Shown: positions 24,301 through 33,808 of the stretch, one piece after another
How the letters are laid out: every line of letters begins with the position of its first letter
Numbering within the stretch: position 1 is the stretch's first letter
Assembly: GCA_013152435.1 (NCBI GenBank)
Contig: JAADGJ010000096.1
Coordinates: 1 to 33,808, forward strand
DNA from: Chloroflexota bacterium
GTDB taxonomy: Bacteria; Chloroflexota; Anaerolineae; DUEN01
DNA: 33,808 bases
Direction: 5' to 3'
Position numbers and translations under genes: made by a program
The notes under the pieces: model-generated
What the model saw: only the letters and a program-made list of their open reading frames with translations
Database searches by the model: none
What the model was told of the DNA's origin: nothing

Positions 24301-25651
24301 TCACTCCCACCTCCGATACCATGCTCTGATAATTCCATCCCGAGGCGTAGATGCGAATGGAGTTCAGCCGGGCGGGGCGCGTCTCCTGGAGAAGATCGAT
24401 CAGGTTCGGCGACTCATAGGGATACCACACGTAGGCCGGAATCTTCTCCCCGTTGATGATGGGCCAGTTGCTATCCGGGTCCGGATCACGGTAATAGAAG
24501 CCGTGGACCCACTCCAGCTGTTTGCCGTAGATATCCGTGTAGCTGAGGCGCACCATCACCGGGAACTCGGAGCTCAGATAGCCGCCGCCCGGGAGCGACT
24601 GATGGATCAGCCGCACGTCCAGCCGCACGCTCAAATAGTCGTAGTCCAGCACGTCCTTGTCCAGCGTCTGCTCGATCCAGGCCTCCGTATGCACGCCCTC
24701 CTCGGCCTGGCGGGAGAAATAGACCGCGCGCCGCCCGCCGACGTCCACCACCTCCACGGTAGCTGGGGCGACGTTCGGCGTGTGCTGGTACGTCCCCACC
24801 TGCCAGGTCGTCTCCAACGGCTCCTCGAAATTGCCGTTCCGCACCAGGTTGCGGGCGGCCGGCAGCGGCTCGGAGGGGGGAGCCCCAGAGCGGAACACAG
24901 TCCGCTCGCCCGTCTGCACCACCATCGTCGCGCCGCCGGAGCGAACGGTGGCCTTCCCCGTGCGCGCCGTCACCTGCGACTCGTCCTGATCGACCTCGAT
25001 GGAAAAGCTGCCACGGGTCAGGTCCACAGAGCCATGAGGGGTATACACCCGGACGATCAGCGCACGGCTGAGAGGCTGCAGGTTGAGGATCCGCACCTGG
25101 CCGCGGTGCAGCTCCAACTCCACCTGATACGGTTCCCGGCTACGCCGGAACCGGGGCTGCCGAGCTCGATGCACCGTCAGCTCGGTCTGGCTGTAAAGCT
25201 GCACCGTGCTCAGAGCGCCTTCCGGCTCGTCCGGCTCCTCGATGGTCAGGATCGCCCGGGCATCCCCCGTGCGGATCGTGTCCCCCTCCCGGATCTCCCG
25301 GGAGGACTCCACCGCGGTGGGCTCGCGCGCGCCCGGTGCCACCACCAACACCGTGCCGGAATCCGCCAACACATCCACACGAGCCGGCTCAGGCTCCGTG
25401 GAGTAGAGGACGAACCAGCGGATCCCCAACGGAACGGAGGTTACCAGAACGCAGAAAAGGAGAAAGGCGGTGATCAGGACCGTCCACGCCAGCCGCTCGG
25501 GATTGGCGCGCAGGCCTCGACGGCTCGCCCAGGACGGCGGCGCATCGATTTGGTCCGCCAAGGGGGCCCCCTGTGCGCCATGCAGCTGCTGCGCCGGGGT
25601 CGACTCCACGGCGGGTGACGCCGGCCTCGATCGGCCCACTGGACCGCTCAC
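24290..25651 (-). CDS. FecR-domain single-pass membrane protein
   Basis: The protein has 453 residues. A cytoplasmic N-terminus of about 55 residues is followed by one membrane helix (LAWTVLITAFLLFCVLVTSVPLGI). The external part holds a FecR-like beta region (DSGTVLVV, EGDTIRTGDARAILTI, LHRGQVRIL, YTPHGSVDLTRGSFSIEV, ARTGKATVRSGG). The C-terminal 170 residues begin NLVRNGNFEEP, a pattern common at the start of carbohydrate-binding-like jelly rolls. FecR domains are known from sigma-factor signalling, but no sigma or anti-sigma gene is near, so here it is more likely a surface domain. The start is GTG at 25651 in a GTGA overlap with the acylphosphatase stop; a TTG at 25654 is possible. Confidence 0.83.
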   Translation of the reverse strand: MSGPVGRSRPASPAVESTPAQQLHGAQGAPLADQIDAPPSWASRRGLRANPERLAWTVLITAFLLFCVLVTSVPLGIRWFVLYSTEPEPARVDVLADSGTVLVVAPGAREPTAVESSREIREGDTIRTGDARAILTIEEPDEPEGALSTVQLYSQTELTVHRARQPRFRRSREPYQVELELHRGQVRILNLQPLSRALIVRVYTPHGSVDLTRGSFSIEVDQDESQVTARTGKATVRSGGATMVVQTGERTVFRSGAPPSEPLPAARNLVRNGNFEEPLETTWQVGTYQHTPNVAPATVEVVDVGGRRAVYFSRQAEEGVHTEAWIEQTLDKDVLDYDYLSVRLDVRLIHQSLPGGGYLSSEFPVMVRLSYTDIYGKQLEWVHGFYYRDPDPDSNWPIINGEKIPAYVWYPYESPNLIDLLQETRPARLNSIRIYASGWNYQSMVSEVGVIAR

Positions 25652-25959
25652 CAAAATCTCACCTCAAATCCGTGATACTGCCCCGTGTAGGGGCCCCAGA
25701 TCACGTTCACACGTTGTACCCGGGCCGACGACGGTCCCCGCCGTACGGCCTCCAACAAGCGCTCCAATGCAGCACGCGGCCCCTCGGCCTCCAGCTCCAC
25801 ACTGCCATCCCGCCGATTGCGCACCCAACCGCTGACGCCCAATCGACGCGCCACGCTTTGCACGAAATACCGGAACCCCACACCCTGCACTCGCCCGTAC
25901 ACCTCCACCCGCACCCTGGCCAGGGATTCCGGATCCTGGACATCGTGCCGATCGGTCAT
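25648..25959 (-). CDS. acyP: Acylphosphatase
   Basis: The protein has 103 residues. It hydrolyses acyl phosphates such as acetyl phosphate or 1,3-bisphosphoglycerate. The signature GRVQGVGFRYFVQ contains catalytic R30, and SGWVRNRRDGSVE contains catalytic N48. Their spacing of 18 equals that of the classical enzyme (R23, N41). The ATG at 25959 follows GGAG. A GTG at 25965 in a GTGA overlap with the preceding stop is an alternative and would add two residues. It sits inside the operon between the radical SAM gene and the FecR gene with no spare bases. Its link to their function is not obvious. Confidence 0.95.
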   Translation of the reverse strand: MTDRHDVQDPESLARVRVEVYGRVQGVGFRYFVQSVARRLGVSGWVRNRRDGSVELEAEGPRAALERLLEAVRRGPSSARVQRVNVIWGPYTGQYHGFEVRFW

Positions 25960-25961
25960 CC

Positions 25962-26912
25962 TCACTCCACCGTCCAGAGCATCCAGCGAGTGCGAGTGCG
26001 CCGATCCAACCGATGAAGGCCGGCGGCGCGCACGATCTCCTCCGCCTGCCGGACCTCCTCAGGCGTGACCGGCCGATCCAACGGCGGAAATTCCTCCGCT
26101 CGATAGGCCGGGCGATACTGCCCCATGACGTTGATATAGGTATGAGGAGAGATCTCCTCCGCCAGGAAGCGTGCGATCTCCGCCGTCCCCGCCAGCCCCC
26201 CGGGCAACACCAGATGCCGGACGAGCAGGCCTCGCCGGGCCACCCCTCGCTCGTCGATCACGAGATCGCCCACCTGACGATGCATCTCCTTGACAGCAGC
26301 GCGGTTGACTTTTGGGTAATCCGGCACGCCGGACAGGCGACGTGCGACGGCTTCGTCCGCATACTTCATGTCCGGCATGTAGATATCGACCACGCCATCC
26401 AGCAGCCGCAACGCCTCCAGCGAGTCGTATCCGCCCGTGTTGTAGACGATCGGGATGCACAACCCGGCCTCGGCGGCGATCACCAATGCCCCCAGGATCT
26501 GAGGCACGACATGGCTGGGAGATACCAGGTTGACGTTATGACATCCCTGCGCCTGCAGGTCCAACATCATGGCCGCCAGCTCTTCCTCGGTGACCTCCCG
26601 GCCCTCCCCGAGCTGGCTGATCTCATAGTTCTGGCAGAAACGGCAGCGCAGATTACACCACGAGAAGAAGATCGTCCCCGAGCCGCGCCAGCCACGCAGG
26701 CAATCCTCCTCACCGAAATGGGCGAAATAGCTGGAGACGACCGCCCGCTCGCCTGTGCGGCAGGACCCCCATTGCCCGGCCAGGCGGTCCACATGGCAAT
26801 GTCGGGCACACCCCACGCAGTCCCGCAACATCTCACGGGCCTGCTCCGCCCGCCGCTTCAGCTCTCCCGACGCCAACAACGCTCGATAAGCGGGCTCATG
26901 TGCGGCGGTCAT
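25962..26912 (-). CDS. PflX-like radical SAM protein (COG1313 type)
   Basis: The protein has 316 residues. The [4Fe-4S]/SAM motif CNLRCRFC places Cys at 86, 90 and 93. Four further Cys near the N-terminus (C32, C35, C39 and C51, in DCVGCARHCHVDR and WGSCR) suit the extra cluster region of this family. Related motifs include FSWCNLRC, NLVSPSHVVPQI and YNTGGYDSLEALRLLDGVVDIYMPDMKY. The family resembles pyruvate formate-lyase activases, but no glycyl-radical enzyme lies in this window and the substrate is unknown. The stop overlaps the acylphosphatase start region, and the gene begins 14 bases after the TPR gene. Confidence 0.9.
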   Translation of the reverse strand: MTAAHEPAYRALLASGELKRRAEQAREMLRDCVGCARHCHVDRLAGQWGSCRTGERAVVSSYFAHFGEEDCLRGWRGSGTIFFSWCNLRCRFCQNYEISQLGEGREVTEEELAAMMLDLQAQGCHNVNLVSPSHVVPQILGALVIAAEAGLCIPIVYNTGGYDSLEALRLLDGVVDIYMPDMKYADEAVARRLSGVPDYPKVNRAAVKEMHRQVGDLVIDERGVARRGLLVRHLVLPGGLAGTAEIARFLAEEISPHTYINVMGQYRPAYRAEEFPPLDRPVTPEEVRQAEEIVRAAGLHRLDRRTRTRWMLWTVE

Positions 26913-32027: not shown

Positions 32028-32065
32028 AAAAAATAGGGACCAGAGGCTTTTCGACCTCTGGCCCC
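32028..32065 (-). terminator. Intrinsic terminator of the selA-DUF126-IPK operon
   Basis: On the minus strand GGGGCCAGAGG pairs with CCTCTGGTCCC over an 8-base loop (one G-T pair), followed by TA and six T residues. It lies 24 bases after the IPK stop. It is one of the strongest terminators in the window and closes the operon. Confidence 0.92.
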
Positions 32066-32089
32066 CTGAACGTGACGATCGTAGGTGAC

Positions 32090-32914
32090 TCACTCCTCAG
32101 ATCTCAGGCGGGTGCCGGCCGGATACGTCGCATCGCTCAGGACTCCGGCGACGTGCCCAGGCGTCTCTCCGCCGATCAAATGCACCTCCAACCCCGGCAT
32201 GGCCTGCACCAACCCGGCCATGATGCACACCTTGCTGGCCATCCCCCCGGTCACATCGGCGCCAAACGCCTCGCCCAGCCCCGCGTGGCCGGACAGGACC
32301 TCCTGCGGGGTGAGCTCCGGGATGCGTCGAGCATCGGGGTTACGCAGCGGGTCGGCTGTGAAGACGCCGTCCACCCGCCCCACCAGCACGATCCGGGCCG
32401 GCCGCAGGATGGGCGCCAGGAACGCGAACAGCTCCTCCGTGGAGGCGATGGTCCCCCCACGCACCTCGTCCAGTGCGACATCTCCATAGATCAGGGGCAC
32501 CAGCCCGACGGACAGCGCCCGTTCGATGGGCTCCCACCCCAACGCGATCAGCCGGCCGTCCCGGCAGAGCGCCGTCGCCGAAGGCTGGATCGACCATACG
32601 GGCAGCCCGGCCGCCAGCATCTGATCCGTCACGATCCGGTTCAGCCGCGCCGCGGCGGCCGCCGTCTCCGCGAACCCCCGCCAGCCCTCCGCACCGCGCA
32701 CGCCCGCACGCGTGCCATAACGCTTCCCCACCACATGTCCAAAGGATCCGCTGCCATGCCCCAACAGCAGTCGCAAATCGGGCCGCTCCGCTCGCGCCTG
32801 GGCCAACTCCTCAGCCAGGCGGGCGATGACATCGACCCGGGCCGTGGACGGGCGCGTCTTATCCGTGATCAGCGAGCCGCCCAGCTTCACGAAGACGAGC
32901 TCGCCCGCTCCCAT
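32090..32914 (-). CDS. Isopentenyl phosphate kinase
   Basis: A 274-residue amino-acid-kinase-fold enzyme that phosphorylates isopentenyl phosphate to isopentenyl diphosphate with ATP, the last step of alternative mevalonate pathways. FVKLGGSLITDKT carries the phosphate-binding Lys (K10). LLLGHGSGSFGH ends in H60, the His that marks isopentenyl phosphate kinases within the superfamily; DVTGGMASK is the late glycine loop. LVGRVDGVFTADP is also typical. The ATG at 32914 shares its A with the TGA of the DUF126 gene (TGATG) and follows GAAGGGGG. A start 27 bases earlier would add residues outside the family pattern. IPK is rare in bacteria but known in Chloroflexota such as Roseiflexus. Confidence 0.94.
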   Translation of the reverse strand: MGAGELVFVKLGGSLITDKTRPSTARVDVIARLAEELAQARAERPDLRLLLGHGSGSFGHVVGKRYGTRAGVRGAEGWRGFAETAAAAARLNRIVTDQMLAAGLPVWSIQPSATALCRDGRLIALGWEPIERALSVGLVPLIYGDVALDEVRGGTIASTEELFAFLAPILRPARIVLVGRVDGVFTADPLRNPDARRIPELTPQEVLSGHAGLGEAFGADVTGGMASKVCIMAGLVQAMPGLEVHLIGGETPGHVAGVLSDATYPAGTRLRSEE

Positions 32915-33330
32915 CACACCCCCTTCGCGGGCCAGACCCACACCTCGCCGTCTTGCACCCGCACGCGATCCCCGGTATGAATGCGGGAGATGTCCACCCG
33001 ATCCACCATGGGGATATCCGCGATGATGGCCCCCACCGCCACAATCGCCTCGCTCTCCCGATTGACGATGGCCACCGGAGCATGTCCACTCCGCTGCAAG
33101 CGCAGGATGGTGTACGAGCCGACGGTGCTCCCCTTGCCCGATGGGAACACGAGCACACGTCCGGCCACGCTCTGTCCCTGCAACGGATGCCCCGGCTCGA
33201 TCACGATCCCCGTGTCCGGATCCACCCCGCCCAGGAAGCCGATCGGCTCCGGCGAGACCAGGGCGATCCCCTCGGCCCGTCCCGGCCGGATCACCCGCCC
33301 GCGCAGCCGGATGGCCTCTCCCTCAGCCAT
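32914..33330 (-). CDS. DUF126 / aconitase-X swivel domain: phosphomevalonate dehydratase small subunit
   Basis: The protein has 138 residues. The pattern is that of the DUF126 swivel domain: RGRVIRPGRAEG, GFLGGVDPDTG, GHPLQGQSVAGRVLVFPSGKGSTVGSYTI (SGKGS at 64-68) and IVNRESEAIVAVGAIIADIPMVD. In archaea this small subunit, with a large DUF521 subunit carrying an iron-sulphur cluster, dehydrates mevalonate 5-phosphate to trans-anhydromevalonate 5-phosphate. The GSTVGSYT form and the overlap with an isopentenyl phosphate kinase gene favour that role over the bacterial hydroxyproline-type aconitase X. The large subunit is not in this window. The ATG at 33330 overlaps the selA end by 8 bases. Confidence 0.87.
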   Translation of the reverse strand: MAEGEAIRLRGRVIRPGRAEGIALVSPEPIGFLGGVDPDTGIVIEPGHPLQGQSVAGRVLVFPSGKGSTVGSYTILRLQRSGHAPVAIVNRESEAIVAVGAIIADIPMVDRVDISRIHTGDRVRVQDGEVWVWPAKGV

Positions 33331-33808
33331 GGGCGCGCTCCCAGGCGATCCGGACCGCCTCCAACAACGCCGACTCCTCCTCGGGCTGGACCGTGCGGGG
33401 ATCCAACCACACCTGCTCCTCCACGACGCGAGCCACCACAGGCGGGTCCCCCTCGCGCAGCGCCCGCCCCAGCGCCTCCGCCGATCGCGGCGTCAGCACC
33501 ACGGCGGTGGAGGGCAACGTCTCACCGGGCAGGGAGCCGCCTCCCACGGCCGAGCGCGTCGCGGCGATCGCAGCCTCCACCCCCTGCGCTCGTAACGCCT
33601 CCGCCCAGGTTCGGGCCCGGCGCTCCAGAGCCTCCGGCCTCGCCGCGATCATGCGCCACACGGGGATCTCCCGCTCCGCTTCCCCCCGCAGGTAGTGCAA
33701 TAGCGTGGCTTGAAGCCCGGCCAGGGTGGTCTTGTCCACGCGCAGCGCCCGCGCCAGAGGATGGCGGCGCAACGCACGCACCCATCGCTCCCGCCCCACG
33801 ATGATCCC
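33323..33808 (-). CDS. selA: L-seryl-tRNA(Sec) selenium transferase, C-terminal part (cut by window edge)
   Basis: SelA is a PLP enzyme that converts seryl-tRNA(Sec) to selenocysteyl-tRNA(Sec). Only about 161 C-terminal residues lie inside the window, and the reading frame is open to base 33808, where it reads GIIVGRERWVRALRRHPLARALRVDKTTLAG, a hallmark of the family. Later motifs are PVWRMIAARPEALERRA and VGGGSLPGETLPSTAVVL. The PLP lysine lies upstream, outside the window. Its presence predicts selenoproteins in this organism. Its stop overlaps the DUF126 start, so it shares an mRNA with the isoprenoid genes. Confidence 0.93.
   Translation of the reverse strand, partial: GIIVGRERWVRALRRHPLARALRVDKTTLAGLQATLLHYLRGEAEREIPVWRMIAARPEALERRARTWAEALRAQGVEAAIAATRSAVGGGSLPGETLPSTAVVLTPRSAEALGRALREGDPPVVARVVEEQVWLDPRTVQPEEESALLEAVRIAWERAHG

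Follow-up and report, generated by a model that had tools for sequence, protein, structure and literature searches.

The window analyzed here is a whole contig (G000:C96) of 33,808 bp. It belongs to a draft genome of 4.97 Mb in 149 contigs, which is 95.8% complete with 4.0% contamination. At the high-numbered end of the window the following features were found.

32035..32066, minus strand: intrinsic-terminator-like hairpin with a T tail (13 pairs, 23 bases after the IPK stop)
32090..32914, minus strand: isopentenyl phosphate kinase (IPK), 274 amino acids from the ATG at 32914 (NF040647, solved relatives, junction)
32914..33330, minus strand: predicted phosphomevalonate dehydratase (PMDh) small subunit (S), domain 4, DUF126/AcnX swivel, 138 amino acids (PF01989, PRK03955, residues, tree)
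33323..33808, minus strand: C-terminal portion of SelA (L-seryl-tRNA(Sec) selenium transferase), truncated where the contig ends (TIGR00474)

The initial annotation had read this locus as a DUF126 gene and an IPK gene that share one base, and both the protein families and the junction confirmed it. The protein encoded at 32914-33330 scored over the cut-off for AcnX_swivel/DUF126 (PF01989, E = 8e-35) and for the NCBIfam family PRK03955 (DUF126). It contains a GKGSTVG motif including Ser68, which is the general-base serine. The IPK reached 160.6 bits with the NCBIfam equivalog NF040647, for which the cut-off is 120, and its nearest solved structures are the archaeal-type IPKs 7n9d/7lnt. At the junction, ...GGGGGTGTGATGGGAGC, the TGA stop of S and the ATG start of the IPK have one A in common (TGATG); the mechanical open reading frame of the IPK has a longer alternative start, GTG at 32941. 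A hairpin followed by a T run (32066-32035, folding z of -3.8) lies directly 3' of the IPK gene. The number of terminator-like sites in the region was near chance (one seen, compared with a mean of 0.9 in shuffles). Despite this count the hairpin was accepted as terminator-like because of its position exactly after the IPK gene and its folding score.

On the upstream side, the stop of selA overlaps the start of the DUF126 gene by 8 bases. Considering this overlap and the base shared by the DUF126 and IPK genes, selA, DUF126, and IPK look like one transcript, cotranscription being predicted from the gene arrangement. selA is a neighbor of S-IPK and not a member of the pathway. The same neighbor immediately precedes the DUF126 gene in eight further related loci (L088, L089, L091, L094, L098, L100, L102, and L109), in four of which the IPK gene then follows. 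Named relatives retrieved with the S profile were Anaerolineae, Caldilineales, Thermoflexales, and Ardenticatenia metagenome-assembled genomes (MAGs), which makes Anaerolineae in a broad sense the most likely identity of the class. The record of L088 is labeled Rhodospirillales (isolate Prado228), yet it contains a Chloroflexota-type selA-S-IPK locus; since it groups with Caldilineales-like loci of this type, the label is probably wrong. The remainder of the window's selA was located on contig C147. The ends of the two contigs overlap (window 33426-33808 and G000:C147:1-383, 383 bp at 97.1% identity), which is due to either a strain mixture or an unmerged assembly.

As the initial annotation had remarked, the large subunit (L) is not adjacent to the DUF126 gene. 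An AcnX/DUF521 large subunit was found in the same genome on another contig (C104:10253-11530, 462 bits). Large and small subunits are therefore encoded as separate genes, and both are homologous to archaeal PMDh. The nearest solved relative of S was 7cnr_B, the corresponding subunit from T. kodakarensis (E = 4e-40, compared with 2e-17 for hydroxyproline dehydratase), and S is more than 50% identical to a solved relative. For L, the nearest solved relative was likewise the T. kodakarensis subunit, with an E value of 1e-90 compared with 1e-62 for hydroxyproline dehydratase and an identity of 44% compared with 35% to the At enzyme. The crystal complex of T. kodakarensis AcnX with mevalonate 5-phosphate (MVA5P) gives the residues that bind this substrate (PMC8184944). 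At all 15 tested positions of the MVA5P site, the proteins of the window genome were identical to the T. kodakarensis enzyme, so that the active-site residues of TkPMDh are kept. In T. kodakarensis numbering these are Ala47, Gly48, Val49, Ser50, Asn53, Asn79, Cys110, Glu129, Ser131, Cys283, Cys342, and Lys361 in L and Leu27, Ser62, and Val64 in S. The cluster cysteines of sites A, 1, and B (Cys110, Cys283, and Cys342 in T. kodakarensis) correspond to Cys122, Cys313, and Cys370 of L. At site C, L has Val372 and no cysteine in the alignment to 7d2r, which is the S449C/C510V mutant and conceals the wild-type difference.

The homologous fold and the general-base serine are also features of hydroxyproline dehydratase, and the best NCBIfam full-length match of L carried the name C3LHyp dehydratase. 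On these grounds the two proteins could be taken for a hydroxyproline-type enzyme or another dehydratase. The match reached 311 of 700 bits, far below the cut-off, in a collection that holds no equivalog for bacterial PMDh-L. Hydroxyproline dehydratase differs from the proteins of the window genome in its substrate-site residues and cluster ligands. The C3LHyp-specific residues Trp35, Thr72, Asp203, and Ile206 are replaced in the window genome by the archaeal residues Leu, Val, Ala, and Ser. Two paralogs from the same class (L066 and L068) carry hydroxyproline-type residues at discriminating positions, and the residue test therefore separates PMDh from the hydroxyproline type. The tree of S placed the hydroxyproline enzyme, together with the paralogs, on a separate side from the window S with a support of 100, and the PMDh-type proteins all grouped together in the tree of L (100/100). 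In relatives, furthermore, S and L share an operon with the genes for mevalonate kinase (MVK), the decarboxylase described below (AMPD), and IPK. The assignment of S plus L as a phosphomevalonate dehydratase (AcnX type IIb), predicted by homology, is supported by these results. The dehydratase of the archaeal modified mevalonate pathway of Aeropyrum pernix, as described by Hayakawa et al. in 2018, is reportedly of AcnX type IIb.

The other genes of the route were found scattered over the genome, the complete set being distributed over contigs C96, C104, C62, C52, C38, and C93. On C62, the MVK gene (TIGR00549 over cut-off) overlaps the gene of a UbiD-family decarboxylase by 4 bp. UbiX was found on C38, HMG-CoA reductase on C52, and a type-2 IPP isomerase (IDI-2) on C93. 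One genome thus holds MVK, PMDh L and S, a UbiD-type decarboxylase, UbiX, and IPK. No match was obtained in this 96% complete draft for DXR (PF02670), IspG (PF04551), or a PMD/MDD-type decarboxylase (PF18376, MDD_C). The remaining GHMP kinase matches were two galactokinases, one heptose-kinase-like protein, and one further protein, with no recognized IspE or phosphomevalonate kinase among them. A UbiD on C147 was rejected as the pathway decarboxylase, being of the menaquinone type (TIGR03701 over cut-off). A weak and only partial AcnX match on C117 (20.8 bits) remained below the cut-off.

The initial annotation had proposed, from the DUF126 and IPK genes, that this bacterium uses the anhydromevalonate route or has both this and the phosphomevalonate decarboxylase route. 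The first proposal agrees with the residues, with the tree, and with the genes found: DUF521, MVK and the adjoining UbiD-type decarboxylase, the prenylated-FMN synthase UbiX, and HMG-CoA reductase were present, and DXR and IspG of the MEP pathway were not found. Its extension to both routes was not borne out, as no PMD/MDD-type decarboxylase was found in the genome. From gene presence, active-site conservation, operon linkage, phylogeny, and the rival-route marker genes not found, the isoprenoid precursors of the bacterium are very probably made by the archaeal mevalonate route.

The route would proceed as follows. HMG-CoA reductase and mevalonate kinase would supply the substrate of the dehydratase. 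PMDh-S, as domain 4 with Ser68 as general base, would close over the [4Fe-4S]-bearing L encoded on the other contig, and the two together would remove water from (R)-mevalonate 5-phosphate to give trans-anhydromevalonate 5-phosphate. This product would be decarboxylated to isopentenyl phosphate by the UbiD-type enzyme with prenylated FMN from UbiX. IPK would then convert isopentenyl phosphate to isopentenyl diphosphate, from which the type-2 isomerase would make DMAPP. The activities of the enzymes are predicted, as is the joining of S with an L encoded at a different locus.

The archaeal mevalonate pathway has been described, with its enzymes, in Aeropyrum and other organisms (PMC10040528, PMC8184944), and as late as 2023 the pathway was called unique to archaea (PMC10040528). 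The window genome has in common with Aeropyrum pernix the MVK, PMDh L and S, the UbiD-type decarboxylase with UbiX, and the IPK. It differs in the bacterial host, in the placement of MVK-AMPD, L, and S-IPK at three places, and in the selA gene upstream of S. The pathway has been reported in Ca. Promineifilum breve, a member of the Chloroflexota (Kanno et al. 2024, AEM 90:e0110624, cited as reference 64 in PMC13001223). At the level of the title and citation of that report, the pathway and the phylum are the same as here; the organism and, as far as known, the gene arrangement are different. The pathway of the window genome is thus an addition to one already published for a Chloroflexota bacterium, and what may be new is the breadth across the class, the division into two clades, and the single-chain form, all presented below. 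Kanno et al. are said to have tested the PMDh and the decarboxylase of Ca. Promineifilum breve.

A different source of isoprenoids is used by Roseiflexus castenholzii, where an alternative mevalonate pathway with MPD and IPK operates without a MEP pathway (Dellas et al. 2013, PMC3857490). It shares HMG-CoA reductase, MVK, and IPK with the window genome, as well as the lack of a MEP pathway, but an MDD-like phosphomevalonate decarboxylase takes the place of PMDh and UbiD. The distribution of both routes was followed in an even sample of 150 genomes of the class, each at least 85% complete and including the window genome. IPK was found over its cut-off in 134 of the 150 and HMG-CoA reductase in 145, while IspG was found in none (0/150). 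Matches to DXR in 13 of the genomes were discarded: none exceeded 27 bits and almost all were confined to the first 35-46 positions, which makes them spurious or uninformative. AcnX over cut-off was present in 68/150 genomes, and the same number (68/150) had an AMPD, i.e. a decarboxylase sharing at least 45% identity with the UbiD of C62; the two occurred together in 63. A PMD-type decarboxylase was found in 73/150. Fifty-seven genomes had AMPD only, 62 PMD only, 11 both, and 20 neither, so that the two tend to be mutually exclusive (Fisher p of 1.3e-13, not corrected for kinship). The broad presence of IPK and the occurrence of the PMD-type decarboxylase in about half of the class would fit a supply of isoprenoids by the Roseiflexus-type route of phosphomevalonate decarboxylase and IPK. 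For the window genome itself, where no such decarboxylase was found, this route is very unlikely. Four genomes of the class (G020, G099, G127, and G143) combine a PMDh of the archaea-nested clade with a PMD-type decarboxylase and possibly have both routes in one cell.

The position of L away from S was further analyzed by comparing the gene order in relatives. Contiguous MVK-AMPD-L-S-IPK clusters occur in relatives from the class (e.g. L052, L092, and L115), and the same order is found in Bathyarchaeota (e.g. L112, L114, L124, L140, and L165). In the family of the window the operon has come apart into three pieces, MVK-AMPD, L, and S-IPK, as seen in the window genome. L and IPK are on different contigs also in the family members G079 and G022. 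The latter consists of few contigs and has L on C13 and IPK on C12, its L being 84% identical to that of the window genome. Because L lies directly upstream of S in relatives, its absence beside S is a lineage-specific rearrangement of the window's family and does not indicate a different enzyme. The relocation of L could also be viewed as decay, with S-IPK left as a degenerate operon remnant in a bacterium that imports isoprenoid precursors or obtains them otherwise. This is extremely unlikely, as the catalytic residues are all intact, the other pathway genes are all present, the overlapping gene starts and the terminator are retained, and there is conservation in the genus and family.

Since the pathway of this draft genome is spread over several of its 149 contigs, with 4% contamination, archaeal contigs binned into a bacterial genome might mimic it, and the near-duplicate contig ends (97.1% over 383 bp) are a sign of strain mixture. 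But S-IPK overlaps a bacterial selA, and other genes on the contig of L read as ordinary bacterial genes. The same genes are present in genomes of the same genus and the same family, and 27-30 large subunits from Chloroflexota cluster in a clade separate from archaea. The recurrence across independent genomes refutes a binning artefact, the probability of which we regard as negligible.

The history of the pathway was assessed with trees of L, S, and the decarboxylase. In the L tree (83 rows), Chloroflexota appeared in two groups. The large group, which includes the window, is the clade apart from archaea; the second consists of seven Chloroflexota sequences placed among archaea, beside an unassigned archaeon and Aenigmatarchaeota. 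Forcing one Chloroflexota clade was rejected both for the full tree (AU p 6e-07) and after removal of long branches and outgroups (AU p 2e-10). The decarboxylase tree contained the same two Chloroflexota groups and also rejected a single clade (AU p 6e-91); here the clade of the window itself lay inside archaea. The S tree alone, with 134 columns, was compatible with one as well as two Chloroflexota origins (AU p 0.60). The simplest reading of these trees would be that exchanges between archaea and the Chloroflexota of this class took place at least twice. With its outgroup on a long branch, the PMDh tree allows only a tentative root and hence only a tentative direction for the older transfer. 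On balance we favor a history in which the archaeal lower module is standing in the class, having been exchanged with archaea at least twice and swapped with PMD, and in which one family has a single-chain dehydratase. Under this history the two exchanges would, with similar moderate confidence, correspond to the large clade of the window and to the other one, which lies among DPANN and unassigned archaea. The class serves as a natural experiment, both for the replacement of one essential pathway by another and for the passage of entire operons between archaea and bacteria.

The single-chain form was found in six genomes of the class family f32. Their AcnX proteins consist of one chain of 593-616 amino acids in the order large-linker-DUF126, encoded at L174:2315-4129, L175:2474-4324, L176:2520-4310, L177:6860-8704, L178:2021-3826, and L179:2312-4093. 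The gene directly follows that of the decarboxylase in G032, G061, and G103. A few kb separate the two in G084 and G145, and in G119 they are on different contigs. The three cluster cysteines, Glu129, Lys361, and the Gly48-Val49-Ser50 phosphate loop are retained, with Asn53 replaced by Thr and Ser131 by Asn. The proteins occupy a basal position in the PMDh group, and a PMD-type decarboxylase was found in none of the six genomes (0/6). They are candidates for a single-chain phosphomevalonate dehydratase. To our knowledge, the order large-linker-small in one chain is not among the known AcnX types. The class is a source of many bacterial PMDh enzymes, possibly including single-chain ones, which could be expressed more easily than those from hyperthermophiles.

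Further AcnX genes were observed in the class. Two of the f32 genomes, G032 and G061, have a second AcnX gene each. A second AcnX gene in G103 (L182:1490-3230) has the order large-then-DUF126 and hydroxyproline-type Asp/Cys residues and is interrupted by a run of N; it suggests a fused hydroxyproline-type relative. Split L and S paralogs were seen in L066 (G016), L068 (G065), and L075 (G019). All three have Asp at the Ala47 position, the first two have Trp/Thr at the discriminating DUF126 positions, and G016 encodes a pathway-type AcnX in addition to its paralog.

Two pairs of genes, named from the appearance of their sequences only, were seen on the contigs of S and L. In the window, a radical-SAM activase-like gene (25962-26912) overlaps an acylphosphatase-like gene (25648-25965) by 4 bases. 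On C104, a second gene of a comparable type with a MEMO-like neighbor is located near the AcnX large subunit.
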